Positions 30,790 through 42,190 of a stretch of DNA of 64,000 bases are shown one piece after another (the stretch's first letter is position 1; each line of letters begins with the position of its first letter). The DNA is from Bacillota bacterium. GTDB taxonomy: Bacteria > Bacillota > Proteinivoracia > UBA4975 > VEMY01. The notes below the pieces were generated by a model. It made no database searches, had not been told where the DNA came from, and was given only the letters and a program-made list of their open reading frames with translations. The translations under genes and the position numbers were made by a program. The stretch spans positions 1 to 64,000 of the forward strand of contig VEMY01000003.1 of assembly GCA_009711825.1 (NCBI GenBank), read 5' to 3'.

Positions 30790-30817
30790 GCCAATCGAGA
30801 ACCGTCCTGAATTGGCA
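30790..30817. repeat. GAACCGTCC palindromic repeat, left of the Uma2 gene
   Basis: GCCAAT ... ATTGGC arms surround GAGAACCGTCCT. The copy at 31670-31696 is inverted relative to it and shares 19 identical bases. Confidence 0.75.
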
Positions 30818-30852: not shown

Positions 30853-30886
30853 TTGCGGAAAACGTACAATACTTATATAATTGTAC
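30853..30886 (+). promoter_or_regulatory. promoter with overlapping palindromic operator
   Basis: TTGCGG (30853-30858) and TATAAT (30876-30881) are 17 bases apart. The perfect inverted repeat GTACAAT (30864-30870) / ATTGTAC (30880-30886) spans the -10 box. This is the expected layout for autorepression by the Phd domain of the encoded protein. Confidence 0.7.
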
Positions 30887-30900
30887 CGGAGGTGATTTCT

Positions 30901-31668
30901 TTGAAACCCCGCAAGTACAAAGAAGGTACGGTAGTAACGGCCACTGAGTTGAAGCAGAATTTCGGCAAATACCTGGATTTTGTCGAGGCGCAAAATGATG
31001 TGGTAATCAGCAAAAACGGACATAAGGTTGCCCGGCTCACCCCTTATGTAACGGATATCGAGCAATACTTCACCATCCGGGAAAAGGCGTTGGATTACCA
31101 GTACGGCGGCAAGAAGGTGTCGTATCAAGAATTCATGGAAATCTACGAGAAGAGCACGCTGCGGATGGAGTTTATTAACGGCGAGATTTATCTCCTGGGC
31201 TCACCCAGCATCGGTCACCAGGAGATTCTGGGTCGTCTGTATTTGCAGTTCCATGAATCCTTTAAGGGCAACAAATGCCGGGTGTTTTTTGCTCCCTTCG
31301 ACGTACATTTTCACAAGATAGACTTTAAGGAACCGGATGTAATGCAGCCGGATATCCTGGTCGCCTGCGACCTGGAAGGCAATATTAGCGAAAAAGACCG
31401 GTATATGGGGACCCCGACGTTGGTGGTTGAAATTCTCTCCGACAGCACCCGCACCAAGGATATGGTCGACAAGCTCAGCACCTATATGCTCTCCGGTGTT
31501 GAGGAATACTGGCTATTTGACCCCAAGCAGGAGAGCGTGATGATTTACTCCTTTGCCAAGCACGAGATTGACAGCTGCAAGGCATATGAACGGGGCGATA
31601 CTGCTCAGTCGAAAGTGTTTGCTGGGTTGCAGGTCGACGTTGAAAGCCTGTTCACCAACCTGCTCTAG
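30901..31668 (+). CDS. Phd/YefM antitoxin domain fused to a Uma2-family nuclease
   Basis: This 255-residue protein begins with a Phd/YefM-like DNA-binding domain (TVVTATELKQNFGKYLDFVEAQ and VVISKNGHKVARL, residues 1 to about 60). It continues into a Uma2 (DUF820) PD-(D/E)XK nuclease domain with RMEFINGEIYLL, EPDVMQPDILVACD and PTLVVEILSDSTRTKD. TTG 30901 sits 8 bases after GGAGG. Fusing antitoxin and nuclease in one chain suggests a self-controlled toxin or defence factor, but activity is unproven. An operator palindrome overlaps the promoter, and inverted GAACCGTCC repeats bracket the gene. Confidence 0.85.
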   Translation: MKPRKYKEGTVVTATELKQNFGKYLDFVEAQNDVVISKNGHKVARLTPYVTDIEQYFTIREKALDYQYGGKKVSYQEFMEIYEKSTLRMEFINGEIYLLGSPSIGHQEILGRLYLQFHESFKGNKCRVFFAPFDVHFHKIDFKEPDVMQPDILVACDLEGNISEKDRYMGTPTLVVEILSDSTRTKDMVDKLSTYMLSGVEEYWLFDPKQESVMIYSFAKHEIDSCKAYERGDTAQSKVFAGLQVDVESLFTNLL

Positions 31669-31669
31669 G

Positions 31670-31696
31670 GCCACTCGAGGACGGTTCTCGATTGGC
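31670..31696. repeat. GAACCGTCC palindromic repeat, right of the Uma2 gene
   Basis: This copy reads GAGGACGGTTCTCGATTGGC on the plus strand, inverted relative to the copy at 30790. It directly abuts the terminator that follows. Confidence 0.75.
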
Positions 31697-34071: not shown

Positions 34072-36132
34072 TTAATTCCTCATTATCCTATCCGGTTGAT
34101 ATCTGTTAACTATCACCAGAGAGATTATTGTTGGCATGACTACTGCCACCAATGAAACCAGCAAATTGATAACAAGAATGCTTATCCCTAAATTGATAAT
34201 GGCGAAACTGAACATAAAGTTAACTGCCAGTATCAACAGTAGGGAAACAAGTGTTGCTAACCCAGCAATGGTTAATACCTGAATACCTGACTCAGTTAAA
34301 ATTAATTTAGTTAGTTCTGCCCGTGTCAATCCATTCGCCTTTAAAAGTGAAATCTCATATTTACGGCTCATCATATTGTTAGTGTGGATTATCGCCATCA
34401 GCAAAAATATAATGACAAGAACCACTAAAACAACCGAAAGCGCAACCTGGCGGACGTTCCCTATCAATGAATTCCTGGCATTAATGTCTTGGTATTCACT
34501 AGCCGTACGAAAATTTGGGTTTATGGTGGCAACACTATCTCTGAGCTGCTGAACCAAGTTATAGCTTTTTGCATAAGCAACATAGAAACTGGGAAACCAT
34601 TCATCTTCGGGCTGTCCATGCTGGGACTGAGTTTCATTTAAAATTTCCATCATCAGCGAATGAGGTATAAATATAACATTATTTCCATGATCAGTGTATT
34701 GGTTTGTTACCAGATCATCCAAAACACCTGCCACCTGGAACTTAAAATTTTCAACCACGAACTCGTCTAGCTTTACCGAGTAGGCACTACCCTCTTCATC
34801 CACTGTTGCTTCGGCAACTTGATAATCACCCGTCGGAATACAAGCTTGCACATTCAAGACAACATCTTGCGCCAGAGAATCTATTTCCAGGACCTCAGCG
34901 AATTGTGCTGATATATATATTGGATCCTGAATCGTGGCTGGAGAGGCTATCTCAAGCCTGTTATCTAAATTTTGTTCCGGGAAATATGGCAATAGAGAAT
35001 AGACATCATAAGGGGGGGTATTCATTATATTAAAGTTATACTCTCTACCATTAACACTGATGGTGGACAAGTCACCGGCTCTCTGATGAGAAAATGAACG
35101 AAACTCTATAAAAGGGTAGATAGAATCAAGTTGTACGATTTTGGCCAATGCTTCAGCTTCTTGAGCATCAACGGGCATATTAGCTTCGTCATACAAAACC
35201 CGTCCCGCGCCAGAAGCCATATTAGATATATACACCTCACGCGAGGACATCTGCTCGATTAGGGCTTCTGATCCCTCAATAAATGCTTCTCCGAAGTTAA
35301 ATGCTGCTGCACTAAACGCGATGGCAATTGCACATATAGTAGTCATCAAGCTCTTTTGAAAGTGGTGTTTTCTTGCGGATTTTTTTGCATAATTGTAGAA
35401 AAAACCAAGCCCGAACATCCGTGATGACGCGACTTGATTGGTAGTGGTGTCTTGGTGTGTTAAACTTAACAAATCGGCGCCTTTAACTGGGTTTAGTTTT
35501 GTGTTCTTAATTTCGTAAATTACATCGGCCTGATTGTAGATTTCTGCGTTGTGACTAGCGATAATCACTTTTTTTGAATCTTCGTGGGCCATCCGCCGCA
35601 GAATTTTCATAATACGTTGAGAATTAGTTGTATCTAAAGCGGATGTCGGTTCGTCGGCGACAATTATATCCGGCTGTTTGGCAAGGACACATGCTAAAGC
35701 AGCTCGTTGTTGTTCCCCGCCCGACAATCGCCTGGGGTAATGATTCAGATGTATGCCCGGCAGCTCGACATAGTCCATATAGTCCCGCACATTTTTGTCG
35801 CTAATCGGTATGTTGGCTATGGATGCCGATAATATAATGTTTTCCTTAATTGTCAGGTTATCTATCAAATTATTGTCTTGAAATATAAAACCGATTCTCT
35901 TTTTTCGGAGCTCACTGGTAACAACATCACTAGTTAAATCGATAGAGTTTCCATCTAATTGATAATGGTACTGGTCATTCGAAGAAATTAGGCCGATGTG
36001 GTATAACAGTGTTGATTTGCCACTGCCGCTTTCACCGATAATCGCGGTAATTCTGCCGTCCAATAGGTCAATAGCACCGTCGACAATTAAATCCCTGTCA
36101 AATCTAATGTTAATATTGCTTAGCCTGAGCAT
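34072..36132 (-). CDS. ABC transporter with fused ATPase and FtsX/MacB-like permease
   Basis: This 686-residue protein has an N-terminal ATPase (Walker A GESGSGKST near residue 35, signature LSGGEQQR, Walker B DIIVADEPTSALD). A MacB/FtsX permease follows, with one helix near residue 265, a periplasmic-side domain of about 250 residues and three C-terminal helices from about residue 570. Such single-chain transporters often export peptides or give self-immunity. It is clearly more AT-rich than its neighbours, suggesting acquisition. It lies 86 bases after the secreted-peptide gene, separated by a hairpin. Confidence 0.88.
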   Translation of the reverse strand: MLRLSNINIRFDRDLIVDGAIDLLDGRITAIIGESGSGKSTLLYHIGLISSNDQYHYQLDGNSIDLTSDVVTSELRKKRIGFIFQDNNLIDNLTIKENIILSASIANIPISDKNVRDYMDYVELPGIHLNHYPRRLSGGEQQRAALACVLAKQPDIIVADEPTSALDTTNSQRIMKILRRMAHEDSKKVIIASHNAEIYNQADVIYEIKNTKLNPVKGADLLSLTHQDTTTNQVASSRMFGLGFFYNYAKKSARKHHFQKSLMTTICAIAIAFSAAAFNFGEAFIEGSEALIEQMSSREVYISNMASGAGRVLYDEANMPVDAQEAEALAKIVQLDSIYPFIEFRSFSHQRAGDLSTISVNGREYNFNIMNTPPYDVYSLLPYFPEQNLDNRLEIASPATIQDPIYISAQFAEVLEIDSLAQDVVLNVQACIPTGDYQVAEATVDEEGSAYSVKLDEFVVENFKFQVAGVLDDLVTNQYTDHGNNVIFIPHSLMMEILNETQSQHGQPEDEWFPSFYVAYAKSYNLVQQLRDSVATINPNFRTASEYQDINARNSLIGNVRQVALSVVLVVLVIIFLLMAIIHTNNMMSRKYEISLLKANGLTRAELTKLILTESGIQVLTIAGLATLVSLLLILAVNFMFSFAIINLGISILVINLLVSLVAVVMPTIISLVIVNRYQPDRIMRN

Positions 36133-36159
36133 ATCGACCCCTCCCTTTTAGGTAAATTG

Positions 36160-36195
36160 CTAGAGCATCCCCGCCAAAGGGCGGGGATGCTCTAG
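36160..36195 (-). other. intercistronic hairpin between peptide and transporter genes
   Basis: A 16-bp perfect stem (36160-36175 / 36180-36195) with a 4-base loop has no T-run after it on the minus strand. It may act as a partial terminator or RNA-stability element giving more peptide than transporter. Confidence 0.65.
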
Positions 36196-36218
36196 CGGCG
36201 AAGTCTGCGATTTGCGAT

Positions 36219-36551
36219 CTAAGGAAACAAAATACTAAATGAGCCTTCCTGCACGTTCGAGCCTTGGAAAAACCAGTATTCACCGTACGCGTATCCTACT
36301 CCAGTGAAATTTATAATTTCATACTCTCCCCTAAAAGTAGATGGTCGATCCAAGCCATAATCAAACCATGCATCATGCACCCATCCTGTTACAACGTTGC
36401 CATAAGCGGAAAATCTTACCCACTCATGTCCGTGCCAACGAGTCTGAGATTTTGTAGTATTGGATGCGCTAGCTATATCGGCCAAGCTCGCGAAGATAAG
36501 TGTCATAAGAATAACAACAGCAATAACCTTAAAAACCTTGTTTTTTCCCAT
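36219..36551 (-). CDS. secreted small protein, candidate bacteriocin-like peptide
   Basis: This 110-residue protein has a clear signal peptide: a basic GKNKVFK, a hydrophobic core VIAVVILMTLIF and a cleavage site after ASA (about residue 29). The mature part of about 80 residues has no Cys and is rich in Trp, Tyr, Phe and Gly (for example GVGYAYGEYWFFQG). I do not recognise a family; a lactococcin-972-like role is only a thought. I chose ATG 36551 after AAAGG. It heads an AT-rich two-gene unit with the ABC transporter. Confidence 0.6.
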   Translation of the reverse strand: MGKNKVFKVIAVVILMTLIFASLADIASASNTTKSQTRWHGHEWVRFSAYGNVVTGWVHDAWFDYGLDRPSTFRGEYEIINFTGVGYAYGEYWFFQGSNVQEGSFSILFP

Positions 36552-36974
36552 TATAATACAACCTTTCTTTATTTTCAATTCTTGGCCTGCAATGTTAGCA
36601 AACTATGACCACCTCCCGTTACATGCTTCTACCTGCACGCAACAATGCTCCTCCGATGAGACACAAGTTGATAGGAAGTTATGCCGTAAGCAGAATGCAC
36701 TAGAAAAATACAGAATGTTACTTAAGCTTACCCCCCCCCCCCCCGAAAAAGGTCAAGCTAAATCGTGCAACATAATTCACCATTTTCCGACATTAATGCT
36801 GCATGTAAAGTATACCAAACTCGATTGGCATAAAAACAAACGGGAACCGCTCACAGTAACGGTTCCCAGTTCTAACATTTATGATTTATCCGCAGTAAGC
36901 GCCCGGACCAGCATGATTGCGGGACAAAAACGCTAAAAGATCCCACCAATTGAGAACCGTCCTGTTTTGGCATT
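36552..36974. other. 423-base gene-free region with repeat debris
   Basis: No convincing gene is visible. It contains a run of 14 C (36731-36744), a half-copy of the GAACCGTCC repeat (CTCGATTGGCAT at 36820-36831), a hairpin GGGAACCG/CGGTTCCC (36842-36867) and a full repeat copy (36946-36972). The promoter of the peptide gene should lie near 36,580-36,720 on the minus strand, but I cannot pick clear boxes. Confidence 0.5.
36946..36972. repeat. GAACCGTCC palindromic repeat beside the sigma-54 activator gene
   Basis: CCAATTGAGAACCGTCCTG followed by TTTTGGCA, immediately 3' of the activator stop codon. The half-copy at 36820-36831 is inverted relative to it. Confidence 0.7.
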
Positions 36975-38609
36975 TTACAAGCCATGTCGCTTCAGTTTAT
37001 ACTGCAGGGCCTGGCGGGTGACGCCCAACATCCGAGCCGCCCGGGTGATATTGCCGTTATAGCGGTCCATAGCCCGGCGAATCAGGCGGCGCTCCACTAC
37101 GTCCAGGGCCTCGGGGAGGGTGAATTCCTCCAAATCCGAACCGTCGTCCCGGGAGCGCTGACCCAAGAGGTGTTGGGGAAGGTGCGGGACATCAATCACC
37201 TGTTCGTCGCCCAGGACGTTCATCGCCCCTTCAATGATATGCTCTAACTCGCGGACGTTGCCTGGCCAGGCGTAGGTGCGGAACAATTCCGCCACCGCCG
37301 GCGATACTCCCTCTACAGAAAGCCCGAATTCTCGGTTATATTTGTCAACAAAGTGCCTGGTCAACAAGTCAATATCTTCCCGACGGCGTACCAGTGGCGG
37401 TAAAGTGATATTAACCACCGCCAGTCGGTAGTATAGGTCCTGACGCAGAGTGCCCTGGGCAATCGCCGCCTGGGGTTGGACATTGGTTGTAGCAATTACG
37501 CGCACATCCACGGGCACCTCTTTCATTCCCCCGACTCGGCGCACGCGGTGTTCCTGTAAAACCCTCAGAATCTTGGCCTGAAGATCAATGCCCATGGAAT
37601 TTATTTCGTCTAGAAGCAAGGTGCCGCCGCTGGCCTGCTCCAGCAGACCGGGCCTATCCACGGCGCCAGTAAAGCTTCCTTTGACGGTGCCAAAGAGAAT
37701 CCCCTCCAGCAGTGAGCCAGGGAGGGCGGCGCAGTTTTGGGCAATGAACGGGCCCTGGCGGGCGCTGGCATTGTGAATGCTCTGGGCCACCAATTCCTTA
37801 CCGGTGCCGGTTTCGCCGTAAACTAATACCGGCGAGACGGTGCGGGCTGCTCGGCGGGCCAACTCCAATTGTTGCTGAAGAGCAGGGCTTTCGCCGATTA
37901 TATCTTCAAACGTAAAGCCCTGGGGCTGCTTGCGGGCACCTTGTTTCTTAGTGTAAAGCTGTTGCTGCAAATCGATGACCTTGCGGGCCAGATCTTCCAT
38001 CCGGGTAACATCCTTGGCCACCTCCAACACCCCGATAAACCGGGAACGATGCCAGAGGGGAATTGTGCTGTTCACGGAAGTAATTCTCTGTCCCTTATGG
38101 TTATGGTAGGTCTGCACTTGATCATATATCGGTTCCCGGGTGCGGAGCACCCGAAGGATTGTACTGGTCTCAGGGGTCAGGGATGGAAACATCGTCAGGA
38201 CATCGGTGTTAATGACCTGGGAATAGTCCATGCCTTCCATTTTTGCCAGCGTCGGGTTGTAGAAAACAGTCCGGCCATGCTCATTCACCACGTGTATACC
38301 CTCGTCAATGGCGTTGAGGATTGCCGTCATTTCACTGGACGAGCGGTCGCTCTCGGTAATCATTAGCAGTGTATAACCAGCCCAACCGTCGGCGGTGATG
38401 GTCAGAGTCCGCCCCTCCAGGTCGATGTCTTGGGGCAAGTTGCGGCTCCAACCATCCAGAGCAGCGGGCAGAGGATTACCTAACTCCAACTTCAGCCCTT
38501 CCAAAAGCTCATGGGCGCCGGTACTGGCGTACACTAAATTGCCCTGTCCATCCAGGACCAACAGAGCAGGAAATCCGGTTTTATCTATCAGACTGGCTAA
38601 ATCAAGCAT
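36975..38609 (-). CDS. sigma-54-dependent transcriptional activator, RocR-like
   Basis: This 544-residue protein has a PAS-type sensor region (about residues 90-205), an AAA+ domain (about 240-465) and a Fis-type HTH at the C-terminus (NGNITRAARMLGVTRQALQYKL). Walker A is GETGTGKE, the sigma-54 contact loop is GSFTGA and Walker B is GGTLLLDE. It should activate -24/-12 promoters using ATP. The only good such promoter I see is ahead of ord, so arginine or ornithine catabolism is the likely target. ATG 38609 follows AGGGGGTG. Confidence 0.93.
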   Translation of the reverse strand: MLDLASLIDKTGFPALLVLDGQGNLVYASTGAHELLEGLKLELGNPLPAALDGWSRNLPQDIDLEGRTLTITADGWAGYTLLMITESDRSSSEMTAILNAIDEGIHVVNEHGRTVFYNPTLAKMEGMDYSQVINTDVLTMFPSLTPETSTILRVLRTREPIYDQVQTYHNHKGQRITSVNSTIPLWHRSRFIGVLEVAKDVTRMEDLARKVIDLQQQLYTKKQGARKQPQGFTFEDIIGESPALQQQLELARRAARTVSPVLVYGETGTGKELVAQSIHNASARQGPFIAQNCAALPGSLLEGILFGTVKGSFTGAVDRPGLLEQASGGTLLLDEINSMGIDLQAKILRVLQEHRVRRVGGMKEVPVDVRVIATTNVQPQAAIAQGTLRQDLYYRLAVVNITLPPLVRRREDIDLLTRHFVDKYNREFGLSVEGVSPAVAELFRTYAWPGNVRELEHIIEGAMNVLGDEQVIDVPHLPQHLLGQRSRDDGSDLEEFTLPEALDVVERRLIRRAMDRYNGNITRAARMLGVTRQALQYKLKRHGL

Positions 38610-38690
38610 AAAGAAAACACCCCCTGACATAGCTTTAATTAGCCATTGGGGGCGCTTATTCCTGCTGAAAAGGGCTGGAATAACATAACT

Positions 38691-41527: not shown

Positions 41528-42067
41528 GTGAACTATAATCTGCTACCTTGTACAGGTTGTGGCCAATGTTTTCATTCCAAACAATGCTGCCAGGATGATG
41601 ACTTTAACCATCTGCATAAGCTTATGAACACAGCTGACGGCCTGATTGTTGTCAGTGCTCACTATGCTCCCATTCCGTCGAAGTTGGCAATCCTGTTGGA
41701 GAAAGCAGAGCAAATCGCCTTTTTGGGTCGATTCCATGGCGACCTTTGCCGCTCTTCCCTCTTTGGCAAACCTGCTGCAATAATCGGCCACGGCGGTGGC
41801 ACTGAAGAGATTATGAACGGTTATAAAACCGTTGTCTTAAAAGCAATTGCCAACGCCTTGATGTATCCGATTGACATGGACATTATCCGCATAGGCGACG
41901 ACCGGGACCCGGGGGTAGTCTTCCCCGTGGCGAAAGTGAGCAAAGACCCCGATTCTCCGTTCCCCGTTCAGGAATACGACTGGCCGGATATCCAACGCCG
42001 TATCACTCCAATCGTGCAGGCGCTCGCCGGGCGTATGCTAAATCAGGACGGTTCTCAATTGGCATAG
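41528..42067 (+). pseudogene. flavodoxin-fold NADPH-dependent FMN reductase / iron-sulfur flavoprotein, N-terminally truncated
   Basis: The frame encodes 179 residues with LPCTGCGQCFHSKQCC and the FMN-side loop SAHYAPIPSKLAILLEKAE, typical of flavodoxin-family reductases. The N-terminal 35 residues or so that bind the FMN phosphate are missing. The homologous frame extends back only to about 41503, where the patatin fragment ends. GTG 41528 lacks a clear ribosome site. The last residues (QDGSQLA) are encoded by a GAACCGTCC repeat copy. Probably non-functional. Confidence 0.7.
42045..42064. repeat. GAACCGTCC palindromic repeat at the end of the flavoprotein frame
   Basis: AGGACGGTTCTCAATTGGCA on the plus strand, inverted relative to the copy at 42161-42190. 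Confidence 0.7.
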
Positions 42068-42160: not shown

Positions 42161-42190
42161 TGCCAATCGAGAACCGTCCTCGATTGGTGC
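42161..42190. repeat. GAACCGTCC palindromic repeat beside rpsI
   Basis: TGCCAATCGAG, AACCGTCC and TCGATTGGTGC make the most symmetrical copy. It abuts the rpsI terminator. Confidence 0.75.

Follow-up and report, generated by a model that had tools for sequence, protein, structure and literature searches.

A candidate antibacterial cassette of a Sec-exported peptide and a MacB-type ABC transporter in Bacillota

Within a 64,000-nucleotide stretch of a Bacillota genome (hereafter the window), two adjacent genes on the minus strand, one for a secreted peptide and the other for a single-chain ABC transporter, form a unit that on balance appears to be a self-contained antibacterial cassette, composed of an unmodified Sec-exported bacteriocin and a MacB-type self-protection transporter and spreading independently of the core genome. 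An earlier note on this DNA had read the layout as a bacteriocin with self-immunity. This reading is supported by the linkage of the two genes, as well as by the faster divergence of the peptide, by a broken peptide gene in front of an open ABC gene in a second copy (C5) and by a swapped transporter type at one chromosomal site, which together fit it better than an export or housekeeping function. Layout and evolution are read directly from the sequences, and from them we infer antibacterial action and immunity; sequences by themselves do not tell an immunity role apart from one in export or signalling.

The gene order on the minus strand is peptide gene (36219-36551, 110 aa), intercistronic hairpin (36159-36196) and ABC gene (34072-36132, 686 aa). 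The GC content of the unit is 41.5%, compared to 52.5% and 54.7% in its flanks, in agreement with the earlier remark that its composition is unlike that of the neighbours; the two-gene unit is AT-rich and was probably acquired from elsewhere. Both genes are preceded by ribosome-binding-like purine stretches, AAGAAAGG before the peptide gene and AAAAGGGAGGGG before the ABC gene. Since the upstream regulator gene (36975-38630) has a terminator-like hairpin of its own on the minus strand (36841-36868), the peptide and ABC genes are suggested to form a separate transcription unit. A sigma-70-like motif (TTGAAA-17-TATAAT, 36578-36550) was rejected as the peptide promoter, as it overlaps the peptide start codon. 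Approximately 180 bp upstream of the peptide start, 14 C follow one another at 36731-36744 (read as 14 G on the operon strand), a possible slippage site or assembly feature; C or G runs of at least 10 nucleotides occur at only five places in the genome.

The locus had also been described as bordering repeat debris, which stood in part. One copy of a dispersed intergenic repeat, AATYGAGAACCGTCC, adjoins the unit at 36948-36962 (no strand assigned), whereas the short left flank gave no convincing match in the window or in two other compared loci. This repeat is present in five copies in the window, compared to 0.07 expected (30793-30807, 31679-31693, 36948-36962, 42046-42060 and 42165-42179), two pairs of which are inverted, and one pair encloses the gene 30853-31668. 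In the product of this ORF, a Phd/YefM-type antitoxin domain (residues 27-65) is fused to a domain resembling Uma2 nucleases (residues 92-264).

The peptide ORF starts with an ATG at 36551 and ends with a stop at 36219. Its product begins with a Lys-rich MGKNK, followed by the hydrophobic core VIAVVILMTLIF (residues 9-20, mean hydropathy 3.3) and then by ASA, which together make up a Sec-type signal of approximately residues 1-29. The mature part of about 80 aa contains no Cys, has a W+Y+F content of 23.75% and a net charge of about -3, and thus corresponds to the signal-bearing, aromatic-rich and Cys-free product of about 80 residues noticed earlier. Cys residues are also missing from at least the G025 homologue, and a Cys pair is common to the G007, L010 and C5 copies. 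According to AlphaFold models, which are all-beta but of low confidence (best mean pLDDT 60.6), the mature peptide is probably beta-rich; a second structure model was too poor for use.

HMM and structure searches, which the earlier note had proposed, agreed with its statement that the peptide matches no recognised family. The window peptide and five homologues gave nothing relevant in Pfam and NCBIfam, nor did the peptide in PHROGs. Similarly, a PDB sequence search with the peptide profile returned nothing, a fold search with the pLDDT 60.6 model gave no match below E 0.5, and no convincing match was obtained in the phage and plasmid collections searched with the G007 peptide. No homology to known bacteriocins was detectable in the family-model and profile searches.

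The ABC protein consists of an N-terminal ATPase followed by an FtsX/MacB-type permease with a large outside domain. Its Pfam matches to ABC_tran (92.5 bits) and FtsX (34.8 bits) are both above cut-off, and the MacB_PCD match (23.1) is below its cut-off of 27. With an ABC ATPase, an FtsX permease and helices 1 and 2 separated by the large outside domain, the protein is of the MacB/FtsX type, consistent with the MacB-like ATPase-permease first proposed. The Walker A, signature, Walker B and H-loop motifs are intact (at residues 33, 136, 156 and 193, respectively), and a hydropathy scan located helices at residues 262-280, 564-582 and 657-675, the third of the expected four not being resolved by the scan. 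The best NCBIfam match of the ATPase part is TIGR03608 at 160.5 bits (LolD 142.7), compared to a cut-off of 254.85, and PADLOC gave only non-specific ATPase matches for the ABC protein.

Six peptide homologues besides that of the window were accepted, located in five other genomes and, as one broken second copy, in the same genome. The earlier note had regarded peptide homologues unlinked to transporters as evidence against its reading. All six (C5, G007, L010, L011, G266 and G025) lie directly before an ABC gene, a figure that is partly biased, since L010 and L011 were found via the ABC, and C5, G007, G025 and G266 via the peptide. The survey of homologous peptide-ABC pairs suggested there was also carried out, and the pairing recurs in distant bacteria. 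We propose the ABC gene behind every accepted homologue as a candidate self-protection gene.

The second, distant copy in the same genome was found on contig C5. There, a TGA stop and a frameshift interrupt the peptide gene, the ABC gene behind it is open over 696 codons (696 aa), and the GC content of the copy is 42%, compared to 52-56% in the surroundings. An intact peptide-ABC pair is present in G007, which belongs to the same order. The aligned peptides are 22-30% identical to that of the window, compared to an ABC identity of 52% (C5) and 47% (G007), so that the peptide changes faster than the ABC. As the peptides have their own signals and neither a double-glycine leader nor a C39 peptidase was seen, their export would not require the ABC.

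The ABC profile, run against 84,980 species genomes, yielded three further near-full-length single-chain relatives, L009, L010 and L011. In L010 (an Oscillospiraceae MAG from goat omasum) and L011 (Mycoplasmatota strain zrk6), a homologous signal-bearing peptide is encoded immediately upstream of the ABC; in L009 (UBA5509), which was left out, the ABC is truncated and a peptide could not be read, possibly because of a join in the assembly. Among 399 sampled genomes of the phylum, the permease was found only in four (G000, G005, G007 and G266), G005 evidently being the L009 record, as the same 4258-bp contig occurs in both. In the same sample, the peptide profile matched G000, G007, G025 and G266, along with three weak matches that were not accepted. 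Of the further weak profile matches, in G616, G735, G058, G151, G279, G579 and G586, the first two were inspected; one is a membrane protein of larger size and the other resembles a lipoprotein, and neither is a relative. An upstream-ORF heuristic, applied to 69 fetched loci that are mostly ATPase-only matches, flagged eight, among which only the L011 peptide and an unrelated L018 peptide looked secreted by eye; this heuristic undercounts, since it missed the known L010 peptide. In the L018 locus (560-1663), from a Clostridium MAG, a LolD-like ATPase is directly preceded by a signal-bearing protein of 127 aa without convincing family match. L110 (1997-4554, G737) is laid out much like the window unit but with another peptide: it encodes an unrelated secreted Cys-containing protein of 152 aa and, behind it, an FtsX-type permease and a LolD-like ATPase as two separate proteins.

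In the window peptide, 18 residues follow the GYAYGEY motif, compared to 24-26 residues in C5, G007 and L010, whose tails include W, S and TITHxY-like motifs. As its C-end is 6-8 residues short of that of the closest relatives and their last strand motif is absent, the window copy of the peptide may be degenerate or inactive. The early stop, together with the certain breakage of the sister copy C5, would also be compatible with the window copy being a remnant; its peptide would then be missing the C-terminal strand, and the ABC alone would still serve the cell, by giving resistance to foreign peptides of the same family. However, neither the reading frame and signal peptide nor the hairpin and ribosome-binding sites show damage, and inspection by eye gave no frameshifted trace of the missing end, which makes this explanation very unlikely.

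The intercistronic hairpin is formed by arms at 36159-36175 and 36180-36196, which are 17 bp long, 100% complementary and separated by a 4-nt loop, and it is located just 5' of the ABC ribosome-binding site. Its predicted energy is -45.5 kcal/mol, compared to -24.0 +/- 3.5 kcal/mol for mononucleotide shuffles of the intercistronic stretch, and it therefore deserves the term strong hairpin that had been applied to it. The T run of an intrinsic terminator is missing on the operon strand. Hairpins of equal placement and unrelated sequence are found between peptide and ABC in C5 and G007 (-36.3 and -31.1 kcal/mol, compared to -16.3 and -16.7 kcal/mol for the shuffled sequences), and L010, L011 and G266 show no strong hairpin at this place; the hairpin thus belongs to the copies of this order and not to the whole family. 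All Rfam matches to the hairpin were below the gathering thresholds and were taken as chance. Its role would probably be to keep the amount of peptide high relative to that of the pump, or to shield the upstream mRNA.

The strongest evidence for a bacteriocin/immunity cassette comes from the lysS-dnaX interval in the genus g20. In two genomes of this genus, G025 and G266, the peptide gene lies directly after lysS, with dnaX further down. The LysS proteins of the two are 90-96% identical (in G266 the assembly splits the lysS gene), compared to 26% for the peptides. The peptide gene is followed in G266 by a MacB-type single-chain ABC and in G025 by a BcrA-like ATPase and ABC-2-type permeases (names given from reading of the sequences), and these two ABC types are unrelated. 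No peptide is present in the interval of three further g20 species: lysS and dnaX lie ~107 bp apart in G243 with no gene between them, and other genes come after lysS in G171 and G108. Turnover of this kind, seen here across five genomes, would be typical of bacteriocin/immunity cassettes, and it supports the view that the cassette is not tied to the core genome in its spread, exchange and decay.

This turnover also bears on the possibility that the peptide is a structural or binding surface protein (e.g. a wall, lectin-like or adhesion protein), placed or extracted by the ABC and without antibacterial role. A Sec signal, an aromatic-rich beta protein and a large outside domain on the ABC would all be in line with such a protein, but its fast turnover, sporadic presence and low GC content, the decay of the C5 peptide while its ABC stayed open and the replacement of genes at a variable site fit conflict genes better, and we consider this role distinctly unlikely. 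As a separate observation, a pair of metalloprotease-like and lipoprotein-like genes (L107, 510-1866; L141, 1105-2454) also occurs in the g20 lysS-dnaX interval, with or without the peptide unit.

The peptide might otherwise be a secreted signal or an envelope-stress peptide, exported or cleared by the MacB-type ABC as in peptide-sensing ABC modules, with no killing involved. MacB-like ABCs are known to act in antibiotic sensing and to export protein-like signalling molecules (PMC5985334), and each locus contains one peptide and one ABC. However, in the loci read no receptor, histidine kinase or peptide-responsive regulator was found inside the unit or as a recurrent neighbour of it, a pheromone would be expected to be smaller and less folded-looking than this peptide, and a dedicated exporter or sensor would not be expected to be swapped for an unrelated ABC type behind the peptide. 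A signalling function is therefore unlikely, and all three alternatives (signal peptide, surface protein and remnant) are less well supported than an antibacterial cassette.

Precedents for such a cassette exist, as MacB-type ABCs protect against endogenous SDP and against the bacteriocin AS-48 (PMC4887032, PMC5985334). Like the proposed self-protection transporter, the YknWXYZ system of Bacillus is a MacB-type ABC; it protects against SDP, a toxin peptide that is endogenous and secreted (PMC4887032, PMC5985334), but it has a separate ATPase and permease, the adaptor YknX and YknW, and does not form a two-gene unit with the toxin gene. Similarly, AS-48EFGH is a MacB-like ABC encoded with the bacteriocin and important for resistance to enterocin AS-48 (PMC5985334), whereas that bacteriocin is circular, the ATPase and permease are split and extra genes are present. 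MacB of MacAB-TolC shares with the window protein the single chain, the N-terminal ATPase, the four-helix permease type and the large outside domain, but the unit has no adjacent adaptor or TolC gene, and its MacB_PCD match is the one below cut-off.

The unit also resembles the lactococcin 972 units (lcn972-orf2-orf3 of pBL1 and pneumococcal scbABC), in which an unmodified, aromatic-rich peptide with a Sec-type signal comes first, followed by a membrane transporter that is thought to give immunity, and which likewise are sporadic and leave immunity-only remnants. Lactococcin 972 binds lipid II and blocks septum formation. Some pneumococcal genomes keep scbBC without scbA (PMC11796350), a situation that C5, with its broken peptide and open ABC, resembles. 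Nevertheless, the unit could not be assigned to this family. The window peptide and five homologues had no relevant match to TIGR01653, compared to 108.6 bits for the pBL1 lactococcin 972 control (the Lcn972 query sequence being a 100% match to the pBL1 record), and hhalign of the peptide profile against Lcn972 gave a probability of 1.2%. As for the partner genes (TIGR01654 and TIGR03608), the window permease has no TIGR01654 match and no homology to the pBL1 permease, and the ATPase is below the TIGR03608 cut-off of 254.85, which the pBL1 ATPase itself narrowly misses at 253.4. Moreover, pBL1 has a separate TIGR01654 permease and ATPase, whereas the window unit has one chain with a MacB/FtsX-type permease. 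On the best reading, the unit would work like a lactococcin 972 unit without being a detectable member of the family.

In an antibacterial cassette of this type, the peptide would leave by the Sec route, its ASA-site signal presumably being cleaved, would fold outside as a small beta-rich protein, as the weak model suggests, and may inhibit close competitors, probably at the cell envelope. Each predicted half-transporter combines a single ATPase with a large extracytoplasmic domain. By analogy with the MacB mechanism and with YknWXYZ, AS-48EFGH and BceAB, ATP-driven movement of the outside domains of the ABC dimer could pull the peptide away from the membrane or from its target in the cell wall and thereby protect the producer.

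The chances are about even that the peptides represent a new family of antibacterial proteins, unmodified and exported by the Sec route, which occurs sparsely across several poorly sampled lineages of Bacillota and their relatives, each protein protected by its own ABC, MacB-like single-chain or BcrA-like types being swapped behind homologous peptides at one chromosomal site. If true, this would be a bacteriocin family missed by the Pfam, NCBIfam and PHROGs models, in lineages with few known bacteriocins, and it would offer a simple two-gene system for how an adaptor-less MacB-type pump protects a cell from a folded peptide. In lactococcin 972 units, the function of the B and C genes is not verified (PMC11796350), and the compact one-chain version could help to settle their role.
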